From Rhodococcoides trifolii (lineage in GTDB: Bacteria > Actinomycetota > Actinomycetes > Mycobacteriales > Mycobacteriaceae), in the NCBI RefSeq assembly GCF_014635345.1, contig NZ_BMCU01000005.1:124001-188000 (forward strand): a DNA stretch of 64,000 bases, given 5' to 3'. Below the pieces are notes generated by a model. The model made no database searches and was not told where the DNA came from. It saw only the letters and a list, made by a program, of their open reading frames with translations. Below are positions 18,665-25,177 of the stretch, one piece after another (the stretch's first letter is position 1; each line of letters opens with the position of its first letter). Made by a program: the position numbers and the translations under genes.

Positions 18665-19561
18665 TCAGGCGCGGGCGTAGGCCACGTCGACGTGAAAACG
18701 GGTGAAACCCAGTCTGTCGTAGGTGTGAACCGCAGCCGAGTTGTCCGACTCGACGTAGAGCAGAACCGCGGGACCCTTGCTCTCGAGGTAGTGCAGCCCT
18801 GCCAGCGTCAGAAGCCGTCCGAGACCCCTCCCCTGCGCCGCCGGGTCGATACCGACGACGTAGACCTCGCCGAGCTGGGGGTCCGCACCTTCGGGGGCGT
18901 GCACCTTGGTCCAATGGAACCCGAGAACATGGTTCGGCTCGTCCGCAGGGGTGGCGACGAAGAGCCCGGCCGGGTCGAACCACGGCTCCGATCGCCGCTG
19001 GTCGATGTCGTCCTGCGTCCACCCACCCTGCTCCGGATGCCACGCGAACGCGGCGTTGTTCACGCGCAGAATTTCGGCGTCGTCCGACTCGCGATAGGTG
19101 CGCAACGAAATCCCATCCGGTACAACGAGTTCGGGGAGGGTCTCCGTCGTCGGCCGGCGCATCTGCAGCAGTTCACGAACCGAGGTCAGCGTCAGCTTCT
19201 CCGCCACCCGCACCGCGGCCGGCAGCTGTCCGTGTGCCCAGATCCTGCCGCTCCCGGTCACTGCGGCGTCGACCAGTGCGGTACCGACCCCACGGCCGCG
19301 GTGCTCCGGATCGACGACACCCTCGGCCATGTCGACGGCGTCTTCGCTGTCACTTTGTGCTGCAACGACATTGGCGTATCCCACGACGTCGTCGCCGTCG
19401 AGCGCGAGTAGGTGACGGCTGCCGTCCCCGACCGAGATCGCCCGGACCGCCTGCTCCGAGATCGGCGCGGTTCCGTCGATTTCCGTTGCGCGAGAAATGA
19501 TCTCGGTGACAGCGCGAACCTGATCGGGAGTGGGCGAGGATTCTACGATGTGCACGGTCAC
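18665..19561 (-). CDS. mshD: Mycothiol synthase MshD
   Basis: A 298-residue acetyltransferase with two GNAT domains, at about residues 1-140 and 150-298. It transfers acetyl from acetyl-CoA to Cys-GlcN-Ins, the last step of mycothiol synthesis. GNAT acetyl-CoA motifs are visible as VDPEHRGRGVGTALV and VGIDPAAQGRGLGRLLTLAGLHYL, with the C-terminal VLLYVESDNSAAVHTYDRLGF. The start is a GTG 13 nt after the glnR stop, so the two are co-transcribed. This glnR-mshD neighbourhood is conserved with Rv0818-Rv0819. Confidence 0.95.
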   Translation of the reverse strand: MTVHIVESSPTPDQVRAVTEIISRATEIDGTAPISEQAVRAISVGDGSRHLLALDGDDVVGYANVVAAQSDSEDAVDMAEGVVDPEHRGRGVGTALVDAAVTGSGRIWAHGQLPAAVRVAEKLTLTSVRELLQMRRPTTETLPELVVPDGISLRTYRESDDAEILRVNNAAFAWHPEQGGWTQDDIDQRRSEPWFDPAGLFVATPADEPNHVLGFHWTKVHAPEGADPQLGEVYVVGIDPAAQGRGLGRLLTLAGLHYLESKGPAVLLYVESDNSAAVHTYDRLGFTRFHVDVAYARA

Positions 19562-19574
19562 GATCCTGACACGC

Positions 19575-20348
19575 CTAGTAGGCGGTGGTGTTCGCGGGTG
19601 CGTACTCGACCCCGCCGGGTTCGTCCGGTTCGTAGTCGTCGTCGTTGCCGGCCGCGGACTGTCCGGGCTTGCCGGATCCCCGAGCCGGGCGCACGGCCTT
19701 GTAACCGACGTTGCGCACCGTGCCGATCAACGACTCGTACTCGCTGCCGAGCTTCGCGCGGAGCCGCCGAACGTGCACGTCGACGGTACGGGTGCCACCG
19801 AAGAAGTCGTATCCCCACACTTCCTGCAGGAGTTGAGCTCTGGTGAAGACTCGTCCGGCGTGCTGCGCCAGATACTTGAGGAGCTCGAACTCCTTGTACG
19901 TGAGGTCGAGGGGACGGCCGCGCAGACGGGCTGTGTAGGTGCCCTCGTCGATGATCAGTTCACCCAGGGTGATCTTTCCCGACGCCTCGGGACTGGACAC
20001 TCCCCCGTGTCGACCGACCAGCAGTCGCAGACGGGCGTCGAGTTCCGCGGGGCCGGTGGTGGGCAGAAGTACGTCGTCGACTCCCCACTCGGAGTTGACG
20101 GCGACGAGACCGCCCTCGGTCAGGACTGCGACGACCGGTACGGCGGAGCCTGCGCTTCCCAGGAGCCGGCACAGTCCCCGAGCCGCGGCCAGGTCGGTAC
20201 GCGCGTCGACGAGTGCCACGTCGGCAGTTCCGGCTTCGAGCAAGGACGACACTTCGGTGGGCGCGGGGCGGACGGTGTGCGCAAGGAGCGACAGCGAGGG
20301 CAACACGGCTTCCGGGTCGGGATCGGAAGTCAAGAGCAGCAGCTCCAC
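19575..20348 (-). CDS. glnR: GlnR-like nitrogen response regulator
   Basis: A 257-residue OmpR-family regulator. The N-terminus ([20 protein letters not shown]) and [21 protein letters not shown] are typical of GlnR, an orphan regulator with an atypical receiver whose Asp is not classically phosphorylated. The C-terminal winged helix occupies about residues 125-225 ([28 protein letters not shown], then [18 protein letters not shown]). GlnR controls nitrogen assimilation genes in actinomycetes, so the nitrate reductase at 41-45 kb is a plausible target. An acidic Pro/Gly tail follows the domain. Confidence 0.9.
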
Positions 20349-20499
20349 GGTGTCTCCCGTTCTCTTCCGACTGTGAGGGCACGACGATGATCGGTGCCCG
20401 GCGGTGGACGCTCGAGCAGTTGATGTTCGGGTGACAGACTAGCGTGTTCCCGCCAGGTACCGTCGGACGCGGCCCATCGATCAAGCTCGTGAGGAACTC

Positions 20500-21279
20500 G
20501 TGCGAAAACTGATTGTCGGTGTTGTGGCGCTGCTCGCCATTGCGCTCGTAGCCGATTTCGGGACCGCGGCTTATTCGGAGTATCGCGTCTCACGGGCACT
20601 GCGCGACGGCGGCGAATTGACCGCCGACCCGGAGGTCACCATTCACGGATTTCCTTTTCTGACGCAGGCCGCTCGTGGTGACTACAGCCGGGTGGAAATA
20701 CGCGCGCAGGACGTACCGACGGAGTACGTGAACAAGACGACCATCGAGGCGACGCTGCGCGGGGTTCGCATACCCGCGTCCGACCTCGTCGACGGATCGG
20801 TTCGTACGGTCCCCGTCGACCGGTTGGACGGGCGTGTACGCATCGAGGCGACCGACCTCGGGCAGTTCCTCGACATCCCCGACCTCCAGGTTTCTGCGCC
20901 GCCGGCGGACAAATCGGACGGAACGGGTGGGTCCGGCGGGTCCGGGAAGACCACGACCGGCGCCGTCGTTCTGTCGGGGACGGTGTCCGTCGGTCCGTTG
21001 AACACGGCCGTCAGTGTCACAGCGGAGCTACAGCTCGATGGCGACAAGGTGAACATCGTCGCCAGCGACTTCTACTTCGGACCCGAGGGCGAGGCCGACT
21101 TCACCATTCCGGACATCCTGAAACCTACTGTTCTCGGTTTGTTCACCAAGACCATCGATCGTCAGCAACTTCCGTTCGGAATTACCCCTACGTCCGTCTA
21201 CGCGGAGGGCGGCGAGATCGTCATCGAGGGGACCGGAACCGGCATCACCATCGACCTCGAATCGATCCGGACGCCGTGA
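20500..21279 (+). CDS. lmeA: LmeA-like DUF2993 secreted lipid-binding protein
   Basis: A 259-residue protein with an N-terminal hydrophobic signal or anchor (about residues 3-22) and a DUF2993 domain related to TULIP lipid-binding folds. Family motifs include HGFPFLTQAARGDYSRVEI and, near the end, LPFGITPTSVYAEGGEIVIEGTGTGI. Mycobacterial LmeA (Rv0817c) supports mannan elongation of lipomannan. A Gly/Ser-rich linker (GTGGSGGSGK) interrupts the middle. The start is GTG after GAGG. It is divergent from glnR and overlaps the thioredoxin gene by 4 nt. Confidence 0.85.
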   Translation: MRKLIVGVVALLAIALVADFGTAAYSEYRVSRALRDGGELTADPEVTIHGFPFLTQAARGDYSRVEIRAQDVPTEYVNKTTIEATLRGVRIPASDLVDGSVRTVPVDRLDGRVRIEATDLGQFLDIPDLQVSAPPADKSDGTGGSGGSGKTTTGAVVLSGTVSVGPLNTAVSVTAELQLDGDKVNIVASDFYFGPEGEADFTIPDILKPTVLGLFTKTIDRQQLPFGITPTSVYAEGGEIVIEGTGTGITIDLESIRTP

Positions 21280-21710
21280 CGGGAATCACAGTTATCGTCG
21301 TGGTCGTCGCGCTGGCCGTGGTGGTCGGATTCGTCGTCACCCGACGCGAGGGCAAAGTCCGGTCGATCCGCCCCGCGGAGGCCGCGAACGACCGCGTCGA
21401 ACAGCTCCTGGCCGCCGGCGTGCAGCGGGGTGTCCCGACCGTCCTGCACTTCTCCGCGTCGTGGTGCGGGCCCTGCGCAGCGGTCCGTCGAGTCGTCGCA
21501 TCCGTGGTGTCCGACTCGGCTTCCGTCGACGGACCGGCCCCCGTCGAGGTGGAGGTCGACATGGACGAGAACCCGGCGCTCGCCCGTGAAATGGGCGTGA
21601 TGTCGTTACCGACCACGTTCGTGCTCGACGCCCACCTGGTCGAGCGTTCGCGCGTATCCGGAGTGCCGTCCGCCCGCGACCTCGTCGCCGCCATCGAGTC
21701 GGCGCGTTGA
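21276..21710 (+). CDS. Membrane-anchored thioredoxin-like protein
   Basis: A 144-residue protein with one N-terminal membrane helix (about residues 4-22) and a thioredoxin fold carrying the active site WCGPC in SASWCGPCAAVRRVV and the cis-Pro loop MSLPTTFVLD. It probably works outside the membrane in disulfide exchange. Its GTG overlaps the lmeA stop (GTGA), so the two proteins are co-translated. It is the positional equivalent of Rv0816c (thiX). The redox partner is unknown. Confidence 0.88.
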   Translation: MTGITVIVVVVALAVVVGFVVTRREGKVRSIRPAEAANDRVEQLLAAGVQRGVPTVLHFSASWCGPCAAVRRVVASVVSDSASVDGPAPVEVEVDMDENPALAREMGVMSLPTTFVLDAHLVERSRVSGVPSARDLVAAIESAR

Positions 21711-21741
21711 CCCGACGGTCGGACCTGCATGAATCGGAGGG

Positions 21742-21747
21742 TAGAAT
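21742..21747 (+). promoter_or_regulatory. -10 box TAGAAT of the sulfur operon
   Basis: TAGAAT ends 7 nt before the GTG of the polycysteine leader, leaving no room for a ribosome-binding site. It is a leaderless-type promoter for the cysteine-attenuated operon. Confidence 0.65.
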
Positions 21748-21754
21748 CGCCTCC

Positions 21755-21841
21755 GTGATCGACCGCCGCGAGCTTTTGCTCACCCGACGCCGCACAGTGG
21801 ATCTGTGCCGCCTCGGTGGCTGTTGCTGTTGTCGTCTCTGA
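21755..21841 (+). CDS. Polycysteine leader peptide (cysteine-responsive attenuator)
   Basis: A 28-codon ORF starting with GTG. It encodes an Arg/Leu-rich N-terminus (MIDRRELLLTRRR) and a Cys-rich C-terminus, CRLGGCCCCRL, with four consecutive Cys codons (21818-21829) and a fifth upstream. The GTG lies 7 nt after a TAGAAT box, so translation is probably leaderless. Leaderless polycysteine ORFs of this kind precede the orthologous DUF4395-sulfurtransferase operon in mycobacteria, where stalling when cysteine is scarce regulates the downstream genes. The gene order here is the same, so I infer the same role. The 99-nt spacer to the next gene would hold the attenuating structure. Confidence 0.85.
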   Translation: MIDRRELLLTRRRTVDLCRLGGCCCCRL

Positions 21842-21940
21842 CGTTCACCGTCCACGACAGGTGATCTGCGCGCCCGATCGGCGCTTCGATCCCGGCCATG
21901 TCTGCCACGCGACACGAGTCATCTCTCACAGGAGTTTCCT

Positions 21941-22411
21941 ATGCCCCCTTCCAGCGACACGTCCGTGTCCACCGCCGCTTCCGACCAGGTCGACGTGCGC
22001 GGCCCACGCTTCAACGCCTGGGTCACCACGGCAGTCCTCGTGGTCGTCCTGCTCGTGTCGACGTTCTCGACCGTCGCCGCGGGCGTGATACTGCTGCTGC
22101 AAGCCGTCTCCTTCGCGATCGGTGCGGCCGCCGGACCCAAGCGCAGCCCGTACGGCCGGCTGTTCGCCGCTGCGGTCGCACCGCGTCTGGGACCGGTCAC
22201 CGAGCGCGAACCCGTCGCGCCGTTGCGATTCGCTCAACTCGTCGGATTCGTGTTCGCCGCAATCGGTGTCGTCGGTTTCGCGACCGGCCTCGCCGCCGTG
22301 GGCGTGGTGGCGACGGCGTTCGCGTTGTTCGCCGCGATTCTGAACGCCGCGTTCGCAATTTGCTTGGGCTGCAAGCTCTATCCGCTCGTCGCTCGTTTAC
22401 GTACTGCCTGA
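21941..22411 (+). CDS. DUF4395 membrane protein
   Basis: A 156-residue integral membrane protein with about four hydrophobic segments. The DUF4395 signature is visible: an N-terminal DVRGPRFNAW, a central KRSPYGRLFAAAVAPRLGP and the C-terminal CLGCKLYPLVARL with its Cys pair. Family members sit beside thiosulfate sulfurtransferases and may handle sulfur species or an oxidised substrate; the biochemical role is not established. AGGAG precedes the ATG. It is the first structural gene of the sulfur operon. Confidence 0.88.
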   Translation: MPPSSDTSVSTAASDQVDVRGPRFNAWVTTAVLVVVLLVSTFSTVAAGVILLLQAVSFAIGAAAGPKRSPYGRLFAAAVAPRLGPVTEREPVAPLRFAQLVGFVFAAIGVVGFATGLAAVGVVATAFALFAAILNAAFAICLGCKLYPLVARLRTA

Positions 22412-22462
22412 CACCGCACGATTTCGCTTCATTCTTCCGTCACGAACCGAAAGGAACCATCC

Positions 22463-23296
22463 ATGGCTCGCTCCGACGTCCTGGTCTCTGCCGACTGGGC
22501 CGAGCAGAACCTCGCCACACCCAACGTCGTCCTCGTCGAGGTCGACGAGGACACCAGTGCCTACGACACCGGTCACATCGAGGGTGCGATCAAGCTCGAC
22601 TGGAAGAACGACCTGCAGGATTCGGTTCGCCGCGATTTCCTGAACCAGGAGCAGTTCTCGGATCTGCTGTCCTCCAAGGGCGTCACCAAGGACGACACGG
22701 TGATCCTCTACGGCGGCAACAACAACTGGTTCGCCGCCTACGCCTACTGGTACTTCAAGCTGTACGGCCACAAGGATGTTCGGCTGCTCGACGGTGGTCG
22801 AAAGAAGTGGGAGCTCGACGGCCGGCCGTTGAGCACCGACACCGTGACACGTGAGCACGCGACGTACAAGGCCGAGTCGCCCGATCTGTCCATTCGTGCG
22901 TTCCGCGACGAGGTCATCGACGCCATCGGAACCAAGAACCTTCTCGACATTCGCTCCCCCGACGAGTACTCGGGCAAGATCCTCGCGCCGGCCCACCTTC
23001 CGCAGGAGCAGAGCCAGCGCCCCGGACACATCCCCGGTGCCGTGAACGTTCCGTGGAGCAAGGCAGCCAACGAGGACGGCACGTTCAAGTCCGACGACGA
23101 GCTCAAGGAGCTCTACGACGGTGTCGGTATCGACCCCTCGAAGGGCACGATCGCCTACTGCCGCATCGGCGAGCGTTCGTCGCACAGCTGGTTCGCACTC
23201 ACACAGCTGCTCGGCTACGACAACGTCAAGAACTACGACGGCAGCTGGACCGAGTACGGCTCCCTCGTGGGAGCACCTATCGAGTTGGGAGAATAG
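22463..23296 (+). CDS. cysA2: Thiosulfate sulfurtransferase (rhodanese, CysA2/SseA type)
   Basis: A 277-residue two-domain rhodanese that moves sulfane sulfur from thiosulfate to a thiophilic acceptor. The inactive N-terminal domain is about residues 1-125; the catalytic domain carries the active-site Cys in IAYCRIGERSSHSWFAL. The N-terminus MARSDVLVSADWAEQNL and length match the CysA2 group. It precedes sseC with a 2-nt gap, as in M. tuberculosis Rv0815c-Rv0814c. Confidence 0.95.
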   Translation: MARSDVLVSADWAEQNLATPNVVLVEVDEDTSAYDTGHIEGAIKLDWKNDLQDSVRRDFLNQEQFSDLLSSKGVTKDDTVILYGGNNNWFAAYAYWYFKLYGHKDVRLLDGGRKKWELDGRPLSTDTVTREHATYKAESPDLSIRAFRDEVIDAIGTKNLLDIRSPDEYSGKILAPAHLPQEQSQRPGHIPGAVNVPWSKAANEDGTFKSDDELKELYDGVGIDPSKGTIAYCRIGERSSHSWFALTQLLGYDNVKNYDGSWTEYGSLVGAPIELGE

Positions 23297-23298
23297 AC

Positions 23299-23604
23299 AT
23301 GTGTGGAGCACCCACTCAGGGACAGACCTTGCCGGCCGGCGTCGACATCGAGAAGGAGACGGTCATCACCGGCCGTGTTCTCGCGTCCGACGGTCAGCCC
23401 ATCGGCGGAGCGTACGTCCGCCTGCTCGACAGCACCGGTGAGTTCACCGCCGAGGTAGTCGCTTCGGGCACAGGCGATTTCCGTTTCTTCGCCGCGCCCG
23501 GTAACTGGACGCTTCGTGCGCTCTCGTCGTCGGGCAACGGCGGCGCCACGATCAACCCCGAAGGCGCGGGCATTCACGAGCAGAACGTGACCGTCGACGC
23601 CTGA
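23299..23604 (+). CDS. sseC: SseC-like DUF1416 protein
   Basis: A 101-residue DUF1416 protein starting MCGAPTQGQTLPAGVD. Its beta-rich sequence (GRVLASDGQPIGGAYVRLLD, then FRFFAAPGNWTLRALS) resembles a carboxypeptidase-regulatory-like sandwich. Orthologues always accompany the rhodanese, and Cys2 near the N-terminus may carry sulfur; this is inference. It ends just before a strong terminator. Confidence 0.9.
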   Translation: MCGAPTQGQTLPAGVDIEKETVITGRVLASDGQPIGGAYVRLLDSTGEFTAEVVASGTGDFRFFAAPGNWTLRALSSSGNGGATINPEGAGIHEQNVTVDA

Positions 23605-23620
23605 CGCTCCCGTTCGACAA

Positions 23621-23660
23621 GAAAGGCCCCGACTCCCTGCCTGTGGAGTCGGGGCCTTTC
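23621..23660. terminator. Terminator after sseC (bidirectional)
   Basis: A perfect 16-bp stem between 23621-23636 (GAAAGGCCCCGACTCC) and 23645-23660, with an 8-nt loop. The A-rich and T-rich ends allow termination in both directions, serving sseC and the convergent cutinase-like gene. Confidence 0.9.
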
Positions 23661-23677
23661 TCATGTCGCGATGCCGA

Positions 23678-25177
23678 TCAGGGAACCGACTTGATCGGAA
23701 CGGGCTGCGGGCCGATGCCGAACGACTGCAGCAGAGACCCGAACGAGTCGTCGATGGTCACCTGCGGCTGCGCGGGCGGAGCGGCAGAACCGGGTGCGAC
23801 CGGTGGGATCACCTGCGCCGGAGCCGGTTCGGTCGAGGCCGCCGGCGGTTGCTCCGCGTCCCGTCGCTCGCTGTCCTGCTGCGCGAGCGTGGTGATCCAT
23901 CGGATCATCTTGTCGCTCTCCCACTCTCGTCCCGGCAAGGCGTTCCAGTAGGTGAGGTGCTGGAGGAAGCCGAAAGCGATGTACGGCTCGGTGATCAGCT
24001 GGGCGATGTCCGCGTTGTCCTCCGCGAAGCCCACGCGCTCCGCATTCAGCTTGGCGTTCACCACTTCTCGGCCGGGCCCCGCCGCCCACTGCAACGCAGC
24101 GAGGACCTGAGCCTGCGTCGGCGGCGGGTCCGGGGTGCCGCGCGGTTCCGTCCGATCGGACTCGCGGAGCACGACGTCGAGAGCGGATTCTTCCGACGTC
24201 GCGAACTCGGGATGCGCGAAGACATAGGCGATCGAGCGGGCAGCGGTGGCGGCAACCACGTTGGACAATTCCGTCACCGTCGAGACGAGGTCGAGGGGGT
24301 CCCAGTGGACCTGCCCGAAGACTCCGAGCAGCAGCGGCAGCATCGCGATGTTGCGGGGCGCATCGCACGAGAGATCGTACGGTCGGCACGCCCACAACAT
24401 CTTGTCGGTGAGCTTCCCGTAGTCCTTGGGCTCACTCGACATGAAGCCGCCGCCCGACGGGCCCGCGATGTCGATCGACGGCGTCCCCGCGGGCCGGTAC
24501 GGATCACCGACCAGACCCACGCCGAGGACGTCGCTCGCGTTGACGGCCGCGTCGTCGGGCCGGCTGCCGATGTCGACGCTCACACGCTCGGCCACCTCCG
24601 CGCCGATGCTGTAGCCCACGATGACGAACTTCGTCGCGGTGCCGCACCTGGCCTTGTTCTCGTCGAGGATTCTGTTGGTGCTCGCAACTCCCTCGGCCGT
24701 CGAGTCCTGGTACGTCGGATTGCGTTCGCCGATGCCGATACCGTCGGTTGCCGGGTAGGGAACGTAGAGCCAGCCGACGCGGTTGGGCGTCGACGCGTTC
24801 TTCTCCCCGGTAGGAACGGTGAGGTTGGCGATCCAGTTCTGCAGCGGAAGGCGCGCTTCTTCGTCCAGTGGGTTCTTGTCGACGGAGGTGTCCGAACCAC
24901 CGGACAACGCCACGATGAGGACATCGGGGCACGTCTGCGCGTAATTGTTCGGATCGAGGTTGAGCTCGTCGGACTTGGGGGCAATCCCGAGAATCGTGGG
25001 GAGGTCGACCTTCGGAGGTCCGTCGGACACCTGAAGCGGGGCCTGACCGGGCGTCGCGCCGTCCGGGTCGACCGGGGCCGCGGTGGCCACACCCGCGGTC
25101 ACCCCGGACGCGCACAGCACCGCAGCTGCCAGCACTGCCGCCGCGCCGCGCACGGACTCTGTCAACGAAAGACGCAT
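23678..25177 (-). CDS. Secreted cutinase-like serine esterase
   Basis: A 499-residue exported protein. From the ATG at 25177 there is a signal peptide (MRLSLTESVRGAAAVLAAAVLCASG) cleaved near ATAAP. A cutinase-type alpha/beta-hydrolase domain follows: early TCPDVLIVALSGGSDT, the nucleophile elbow in VIVGYSIGAEVAERV (GYSIG) and a Cys in ARCGTATKF. Beyond about residue 300 it carries a helical extension and a Pro/Ala-rich tail, making it about twice the length of simple cutinases. It probably acts on envelope or environmental esters. An upstream in-frame ATG at 25240 would spoil the signal peptide. Confidence 0.8.
   Translation of the reverse strand: MRLSLTESVRGAAAVLAAAVLCASGVTAGVATAAPVDPDGATPGQAPLQVSDGPPKVDLPTILGIAPKSDELNLDPNNYAQTCPDVLIVALSGGSDTSVDKNPLDEEARLPLQNWIANLTVPTGEKNASTPNRVGWLYVPYPATDGIGIGERNPTYQDSTAEGVASTNRILDENKARCGTATKFVIVGYSIGAEVAERVSVDIGSRPDDAAVNASDVLGVGLVGDPYRPAGTPSIDIAGPSGGGFMSSEPKDYGKLTDKMLWACRPYDLSCDAPRNIAMLPLLLGVFGQVHWDPLDLVSTVTELSNVVAATAARSIAYVFAHPEFATSEESALDVVLRESDRTEPRGTPDPPPTQAQVLAALQWAAGPGREVVNAKLNAERVGFAEDNADIAQLITEPYIAFGFLQHLTYWNALPGREWESDKMIRWITTLAQQDSERRDAEQPPAASTEPAPAQVIPPVAPGSAAPPAQPQVTIDDSFGSLLQSFGIGPQPVPIKSVP

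Follow-up and report, generated by a model that had tools for sequence, protein, structure and literature searches.

The short GTG ORF at the head of a DUF4395-rhodanese-SseC operon in Rhodococcoides trifolii is probably a cis-acting cysteine sensor, orthologous to the mycobacterial leader Ms5788A and located at the 5' end of the operon mRNA; we put the probability of this reading at about three in four. The supply of cysteine or of Cys-tRNA would, to judge from the sequence, set the expression of the downstream genes. The reading draws on the sequence of the ORF, its homology, its linkage to the operon and the conservation of its codons and hairpins, all of which are observed directly.

The leader ORF and its operon

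In the window (the whole 64,000-nucleotide stretch of R. trifolii DNA that was analysed), a GTG codon (21755-21757) lies 7 nt past a TAGAAT box and opens a frame that is closed by TGA (21839-21841). Its product is VIDRRELLLTRRRTVDLCRLGGCCCCRL, with Cys at codons 18, 23, 24, 25 and 26, and the C-terminal run of Cys codons by which polycysteine leaderless attenuators are recognized is present. This sequence agrees exactly with a preliminary description, which reported a 28-codon GTG ORF 7 nt past TAGAAT with four Cys codons in a row. The layout suggests that translation starts, without a leader, on a 5'-terminal GTG. Across 116 homologous loci, in which the start codons were picked with the help of the TANNNT box, the spacer between the box and the start is 7 nt in 107, 8 nt in six and 6 nt in three.

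Table 1. Features of the leader ORF and of the operon that follows it
Feature	Coordinates	Strand	Basis
-10 box TAGAAT (TANNNT type)	21742-21747	+	sequence reading
Leaderless-type GTG leader ORF, 28 codons + TGA	21755-21841	+	sequence, homology, NF042933 score
Hairpin H1 (GAGC-UUUU-GCUC), codons 6-9	21770-21781	+	pairing conservation
Hairpin H2 (GCACAG-UGGAU-CUGUGC), codons 13-18	21792-21808	+	pairing conservation
Cys codon 18 (TGC), in H2 3' arm	21806-21808	+	TGC in 87/90 rows
Four-Cys run TGT TGC TGT TGT, codons 23-26	21821-21832	+	sequence reading
Cys codon 25 (TGT), proposed main sensor codon	21827-21829	+	codon conservation
Shine-Dalgarno AGGAG of DUF4395 gene	21930-21934	+	sequence reading
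DUF4395 gene	21941-22411	+	PF14340, 2.4e-41
Rhodanese (thiosulfate sulfurtransferase-like) gene	22463-23296	+	PF00581, 8.4e-38
DUF1416 (SseC-like) gene	23299-23604	+	PF07210, 2.2e-43

A thioredoxin-like gene (21276-21710) precedes the ORF, and the DUF4395, rhodanese and DUF1416 genes follow it. Pfam matches confirmed the downstream genes that had been named DUF4395, rhodanese and SseC, the last of which we take to be the name of the DUF1416 gene product. Directly upstream lie LmeA-like and thioredoxin-like genes (20500-21710), with matches at 79/80 and 75/80 related loci, respectively. The same genome carries a second rhodanese-like gene (C3:238020-238739, 67% DNA identity), and the stretch fetched around it holds no leaderless poly-Cys ORF. 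Likewise, no Cys-run leader with a TANNNT box was found at the nirA/sirA-like, cysH/cysD-like, sulfate-binding or second rhodanese-like loci of this genome, and Rfam gave no match within 19500-25000 at E up to 1.

The related loci were the best 80 of at least 201 confirmed DUF4395 loci, 12 of them from Rhodococcus, Rhodococcoides, Prescottella or Nocardia and the others from Mycobacterium and its kin. Among these best 80, a homologous leader ORF precedes DUF4395 in 79, and every one of the 79 has a GTG start and a TANNNT box 6-8 nt upstream. Rhodanese is present at 79 of the 80 and SseC at 78, the second SseC absence being due to a contig end. The sole locus of the 80 that lacks the leader, L106 from Mycobacterium szulgai, has DUF4395 without an adjoining rhodanese or SseC gene, indicating that the leader tracks the operon. 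(The L106 DUF4395 gene stands close behind a thioredoxin gene.) Within the window's genus, DUF4395 and the leader occur together in 37/37 genomes. The two sets make up the 116 loci, or 110 distinct leaders, as six are common to both, and in all 116 the motif LTxRR[AT]VDLCR or a near variant starts at codon 9 (an offset of 8 codons). The exact CCCC is peculiar to the window's species; in 36/37 same-genus peptides the longest Cys run is three.

Could the ORF have arisen by chance and have no function? Runs of four Cys codons occur at 44 sites in the genome, as compared to 134 for a reversed control pattern, so they are not enriched, which would fit a chance origin. Among the 44 sites, with starts within 240 nt of the stop considered, the window's is the only one in a short ORF whose start has a TANNNT box 5-9 nt ahead of it. 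The conserved ORF, start, spacing and operon linkage rule such an origin out for all practical purposes. The TANNNT layout is also seen away from any four-Cys site, in an unrelated short ORF (locus L032) encoding MCCCRTPPRPPPR.

Against the NCBIfam model NF042933 (Ms5788A Cys-rich leader), the window peptide scores 33.7 bits (E 2e-8), below the cut-off of 45, and seven other peptides of the genus score 35.0-40.1 bits, all of them likewise under it; the model misses all eight. With NF042934, a 'putative leader peptide' model of the cis_reg_atten type, the match covers a 19-residue core and reaches 25.0 bits against a cut-off of 27, which two of the seven other same-genus peptides attain (28.1 and 27.8). 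Sequence, position and operon linkage support the earlier view that the ORF is orthologous to the mycobacterial leader and shares its leaderless layout. The window leader probably belongs to the known cysteine-responsive attenuators, as a divergent and likely unannotated member.

Peptide, codon choice and hairpins

In an alignment of 90 distinct 25-codon rows, R12, R13, V15, L17 and R19 are invariant. Since these amino acids are fixed while free codon positions vary (V15 is encoded by four codons, and R12 and R19 by several), selection acts on the peptide. Other codons are frozen: GAG at codon 6 (87/90), CTC at codon 9 (90/90) and CTG at codon 17 (90/90), while codon 14 is only GCA, ACA or ACG. 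The two Cys positions show opposite choices, with TGC at codon 18 in 87/90 rows and TGT at codon 25 in 86/90. TGT is also found at codon 25 in 60/60 further loci of the order and in 10/10 loci of a genus in another order. The background share of TGT is 0.08-0.12 (UGC makes up about 90%), so the conservation of UGU at codon 25 runs counter to the codon bias. The stress that the preliminary description laid on the four-Cys run was misplaced: the deeply conserved elements are RRxVDLCR and UGU at codon 25, together with the codon choices that keep the hairpins.

Conservation of this kind could also come from sensing through the nascent peptide, with RRxVDLCR acting as an arrest peptide in the exit tunnel and the Cys codons only setting the place of arrest. 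RR[AT]VDLCR occurs in nearly all of the 90 rows with synonymous variation and is kept with few changes in the 60 further loci and the ten of the other order, and pure codon counting would not demand such conservation of a peptide. However, part of the conservation acts at the RNA level, and we regard arrest by the peptide as quite unlikely. We know of no arrest assay on this leader peptide.

The RNA-level signal consists of two hairpins encoded within the ORF, H1 and H2 (Table 1). H1 is fully paired in 86 of the 90 distinct rows and H2 in all 90, as compared to maxima of 27/90 and 26/90 in 1000 draws of a synonymous null, which overstates the significance of the hairpins because the rows are related. 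Relative to synonymous sequences, the folding energy has a mean z of -2.28 around H1 and -1.67 around H2 (91 rows), while codons 20-26 are less folded than expected (mean z +1.07, 91 rows). At four-fold third positions, purine/pyrimidine swaps number 0/360 where the base is paired and 53/450 where it is unpaired. RNAalifold independently recovers both hairpins. In the six pairs of H2, every change in 97 rows leaves a standard RNA pair, with 0/582 cells broken.

Classical covariation, on the other hand, is weak. In alignment A1, the ten named pairs include one both-sided change, and 7-12 of 500 shuffles reach the observed measures; sliding the pairing by -2 gives an equal covariation score (0.093 vs 0.089), and an added pair, 47-71, shows both-sided changes in 21 rows and is broken in 22. 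In alignment A2, both sides changed at one pair in three rows; at least one pair of this kind arises in 113/500 shuffles, and the number of pair types is attained by every one of the 500. The hairpin figures are descriptive rather than exact probabilities, given the relatedness of the rows and the weak covariation, and the case for the hairpins is one of codon choice.

The perfect 6+6 inverted repeat GCACAG-N5-CTGTGC in the window might instead be a DNA operator. However, 59 of the 97 rows carry G-U at one pair, a mismatch for a DNA palindrome, and the intact H2 cells and the absence of swaps at paired positions likewise argue for RNA, making an operator very improbable.

Farther from the window the hairpins become less complete. 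H2 is fully paired in 36/44 distinct rows of the further order loci; of the eight incomplete rows, two have CTC at codon 17 and six come from members of the window's family outside its genus. In the genus of the other order, H2 has a G-G mismatch in 10/10 rows. Those six family loci keep H1 intact, but it is complete in 0/14 loci outside the family. Among the titles and abstracts listed in literature searches, none describes the hairpins or the codon-25 bias.

Relatives that lack the Cys run

Of 397 genomes of the order, 242 matched a covariance model built from the leader (R1). Within the window's family, most of these matches are strong (down to 8e-21), whereas those in other families are weaker, at about 1e-7 to 9e-4. 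In the phylum, the model matched 15/396 genomes, all within the order. (Nine listed genomes of g6, a genus of the same family with small genomes, have no match to the leader model.) From among the matches listed, 60 weaker ones spanning families were taken, six of them in the window's family but outside its genus, and 54 in other families. In all 60, the ORF is short, its start is preceded at 6-8 nt by a TANNNT box, and the stretch fetched contains a rhodanese match. Four of the six family loci have a Cys run of three. None of the 54 other-family leaders has two adjacent Cys; they typically read VDLCRVGSCLC and contain three Cys in 49 cases, four in four and two in one. At the first 20 of the further loci, rhodanese was matched in 20/20 and DUF4395 in 8/20. 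In several lineages the fetched stretch gave no DUF4395 match (12 of these 20 loci; L208, L209, L212 and others), so it is apparently rhodanese rather than DUF4395 that the leader goes with.

A second model (R2) matched 25/396 genomes of the phylum, ten of which belong to one genus of another order. These ten loci share the same general layout and encode LTKRRAVDLCRVAAMLCR or a near variant, followed by rhodanese and SseC, and none has a Cys run. Nine of the ten leaders have two Cys, and the remaining one has a third near its start.

Because the run-less relatives keep UGU at codon 25, the Cys run seems to have been added late, and the strongest candidate for a sensing codon is codon 25. The run looks like a property of the window's family, and the run-less leader looks older. 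We tentatively raise a broader possibility, in which the poly-Cys leader would derive from an older element present in at least two orders and the sensor would be the single rare UGU at codon 25. This codon begins 19 nt, roughly the reach of a ribosome, past the last base of the hairpin encoded in the codons for RRxVDLCR, and H2 would refold immediately behind a ribosome waiting there. In that case, the sensor would be defined by one stretch coding for both peptide and RNA hairpin rather than by its wealth of cysteines, and in the run-less relatives it would need no Cys run. The leader described here would extend cysteine-responsive control from mycobacteria to the window's genus and, by homology, to other families and a second actinobacterial order. 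What would interest specialists is that some relatives have no Cys run, that UGU is fixed and that hairpins are encoded inside the ORF.

Proposed sensing and output, and comparison with known systems

What follows on stalling, on the direction of the response and on the last step is our inference. The ribosome would start at the 5'-terminal GUG and unwind H1 and H2. A shortage of charged Cys-tRNA would make it pause within the Cys block, at codon 25 (UGU) more than anywhere else, and its presence there would alter how the leader folds, raising translation (or transcription) of the downstream genes. A ribosome reaches 15 nt behind the first base of its P codon, the E. coli value. With codon 25 in the A site, its rear edge would stand at codon 19, just past H2. 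A ribosome at codon 25 would thus leave H2 free to refold behind it, which one at codon 18 or 23 would not.

In mycobacteria, the final step is probably exposure of the ribosome-binding site. In the 2020 work of Canestrari, a ribosome stalled in the Cys tract is said to block a structure that masks this site. In the mostly mycobacterial 79-locus set, the duplex between the tract and the ribosome-binding site has a mean of -15.9 kcal/mol, as compared to -11.3 for other windows and -11.5 for shuffles; 38/79 loci are in the top 5% of windows and 28/79 in the top 5% of shuffles. The best partner of the ribosome-binding site lies at codons 23-24 in 45/79 of these loci, and CAACAG, a complement of Cys codons, occurs at the ribosome-binding site in 47/79, as compared to 1/37 in the window's genus.

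At the R. trifolii locus itself, the pairing is -10.1 kcal/mol, as compared to -11.35 for other windows and -8.8 for shuffles, 31% of which reach it. The other 36 loci of the genus have a mean of -12.9 (windows -10.7, shuffles -12.4), with 10/36 and 1/36 in the respective top 5%. Pairing of the H2 3' arm or of the Cys tract with the ribosome-binding site was rejected for the window's genus, where the best windows are scattered. Among the order loci, the scan for partners of the ribosome-binding site used 17 of 20, three being left out by a motif filter. For the window, the Shine-Dalgarno sequence has a predicted accessibility of 0.38 regardless of the ribosome state tried. For both locus sets, the accessibility simulation, the shuffles of which are not exactly reproducible, differed barely from shuffled controls and did not discriminate between the states. 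The claim that the mycobacterial mechanism is conserved therefore stands in part: complementarity is found in many mostly mycobacterial loci, but is not convincing in the window or in most of its genus.

The lack of convincing masking of the window's ribosome-binding site by the Cys tract also speaks for transcriptional attenuation, in which enough cysteine would let the ORF be finished, and Rho or a weak hairpin would stop transcription before DUF4395. The stretch from the stop codon to the Shine-Dalgarno sequence is richer in C than in G, both in the window (0.40 vs 0.25) and in the two locus sets (0.39-0.41 vs 0.26-0.27), as such attenuation would favour. On the other hand, a consensus scan of 21550-22050 showed no terminator-like site between the ORF stop and DUF4395; the intrinsic terminator that trp-type attenuation places between leader ORF and first gene is absent there. 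Moreover, a ribosome stalled upstream would, by reasoning, expose more RNA to Rho, and we consider attenuation of this kind unlikely. The only terminator-like match of the scan (21807-21820; 0.1 expected) lies inside the ORF and has a 5-bp stem with the Cys codons as its U-rich tail. This candidate hairpin, formed by codons 18-22 with the Cys U-tract, was rejected, as it is hardly favoured over synonymous sequences (mean z -0.5).

For the cysteine sensor proposed here, the sensing step in the window is likely, while the output step is less settled, because neither the pairing nor the accessibility of the window's ribosome-binding site shows masking. The output may consist in exposing this site in some way that our folding did not reveal, or in Rho acting over the C-rich spacer to attenuate transcription.

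The closest known system is Ms5788A (NF042933), the M. smegmatis uORF before Msmeg_5788, in a family that also includes the M. tuberculosis uORF before cysA2. Shell et al. (2015; PMC4633059) place the mycobacterial uORF before cysA2/Msmeg_5788 on a leaderless mRNA, report ribosome occupancy for the M. smegmatis ortholog and speculate on cysteine attenuation by the uORF. A 2026 paper (PMC13236596) cites Canestrari 2020 for translation attenuation of M. smegmatis cysteine genes. The window leader shares with Ms5788A the place before the rhodanese operon, the leaderless layout, the common core LTxRR[AT]VDLCRxxGC and a C-terminal Cys cluster. It differs in its sub-cut-off score and in a shorter Cys block ending in CRL, and its Cys tract shows no evident complementarity to the ribosome-binding site, unlike that of many mycobacterial loci. 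NF042934, the core of which the window matches just under the cut-off, is a broad domain model without a mechanism. The available text of PMC8079986 names eight S. lividans leader peptides, none of them for cysteine. The actinobacterial attenuators leuL, trpL, ilvL and others are, according to the same text, short and mostly leaderless ORFs with codons for the sensed amino acid, as is the window leader, whereas the relatives of the latter in another order mostly have two Cys codons, seven codons apart.
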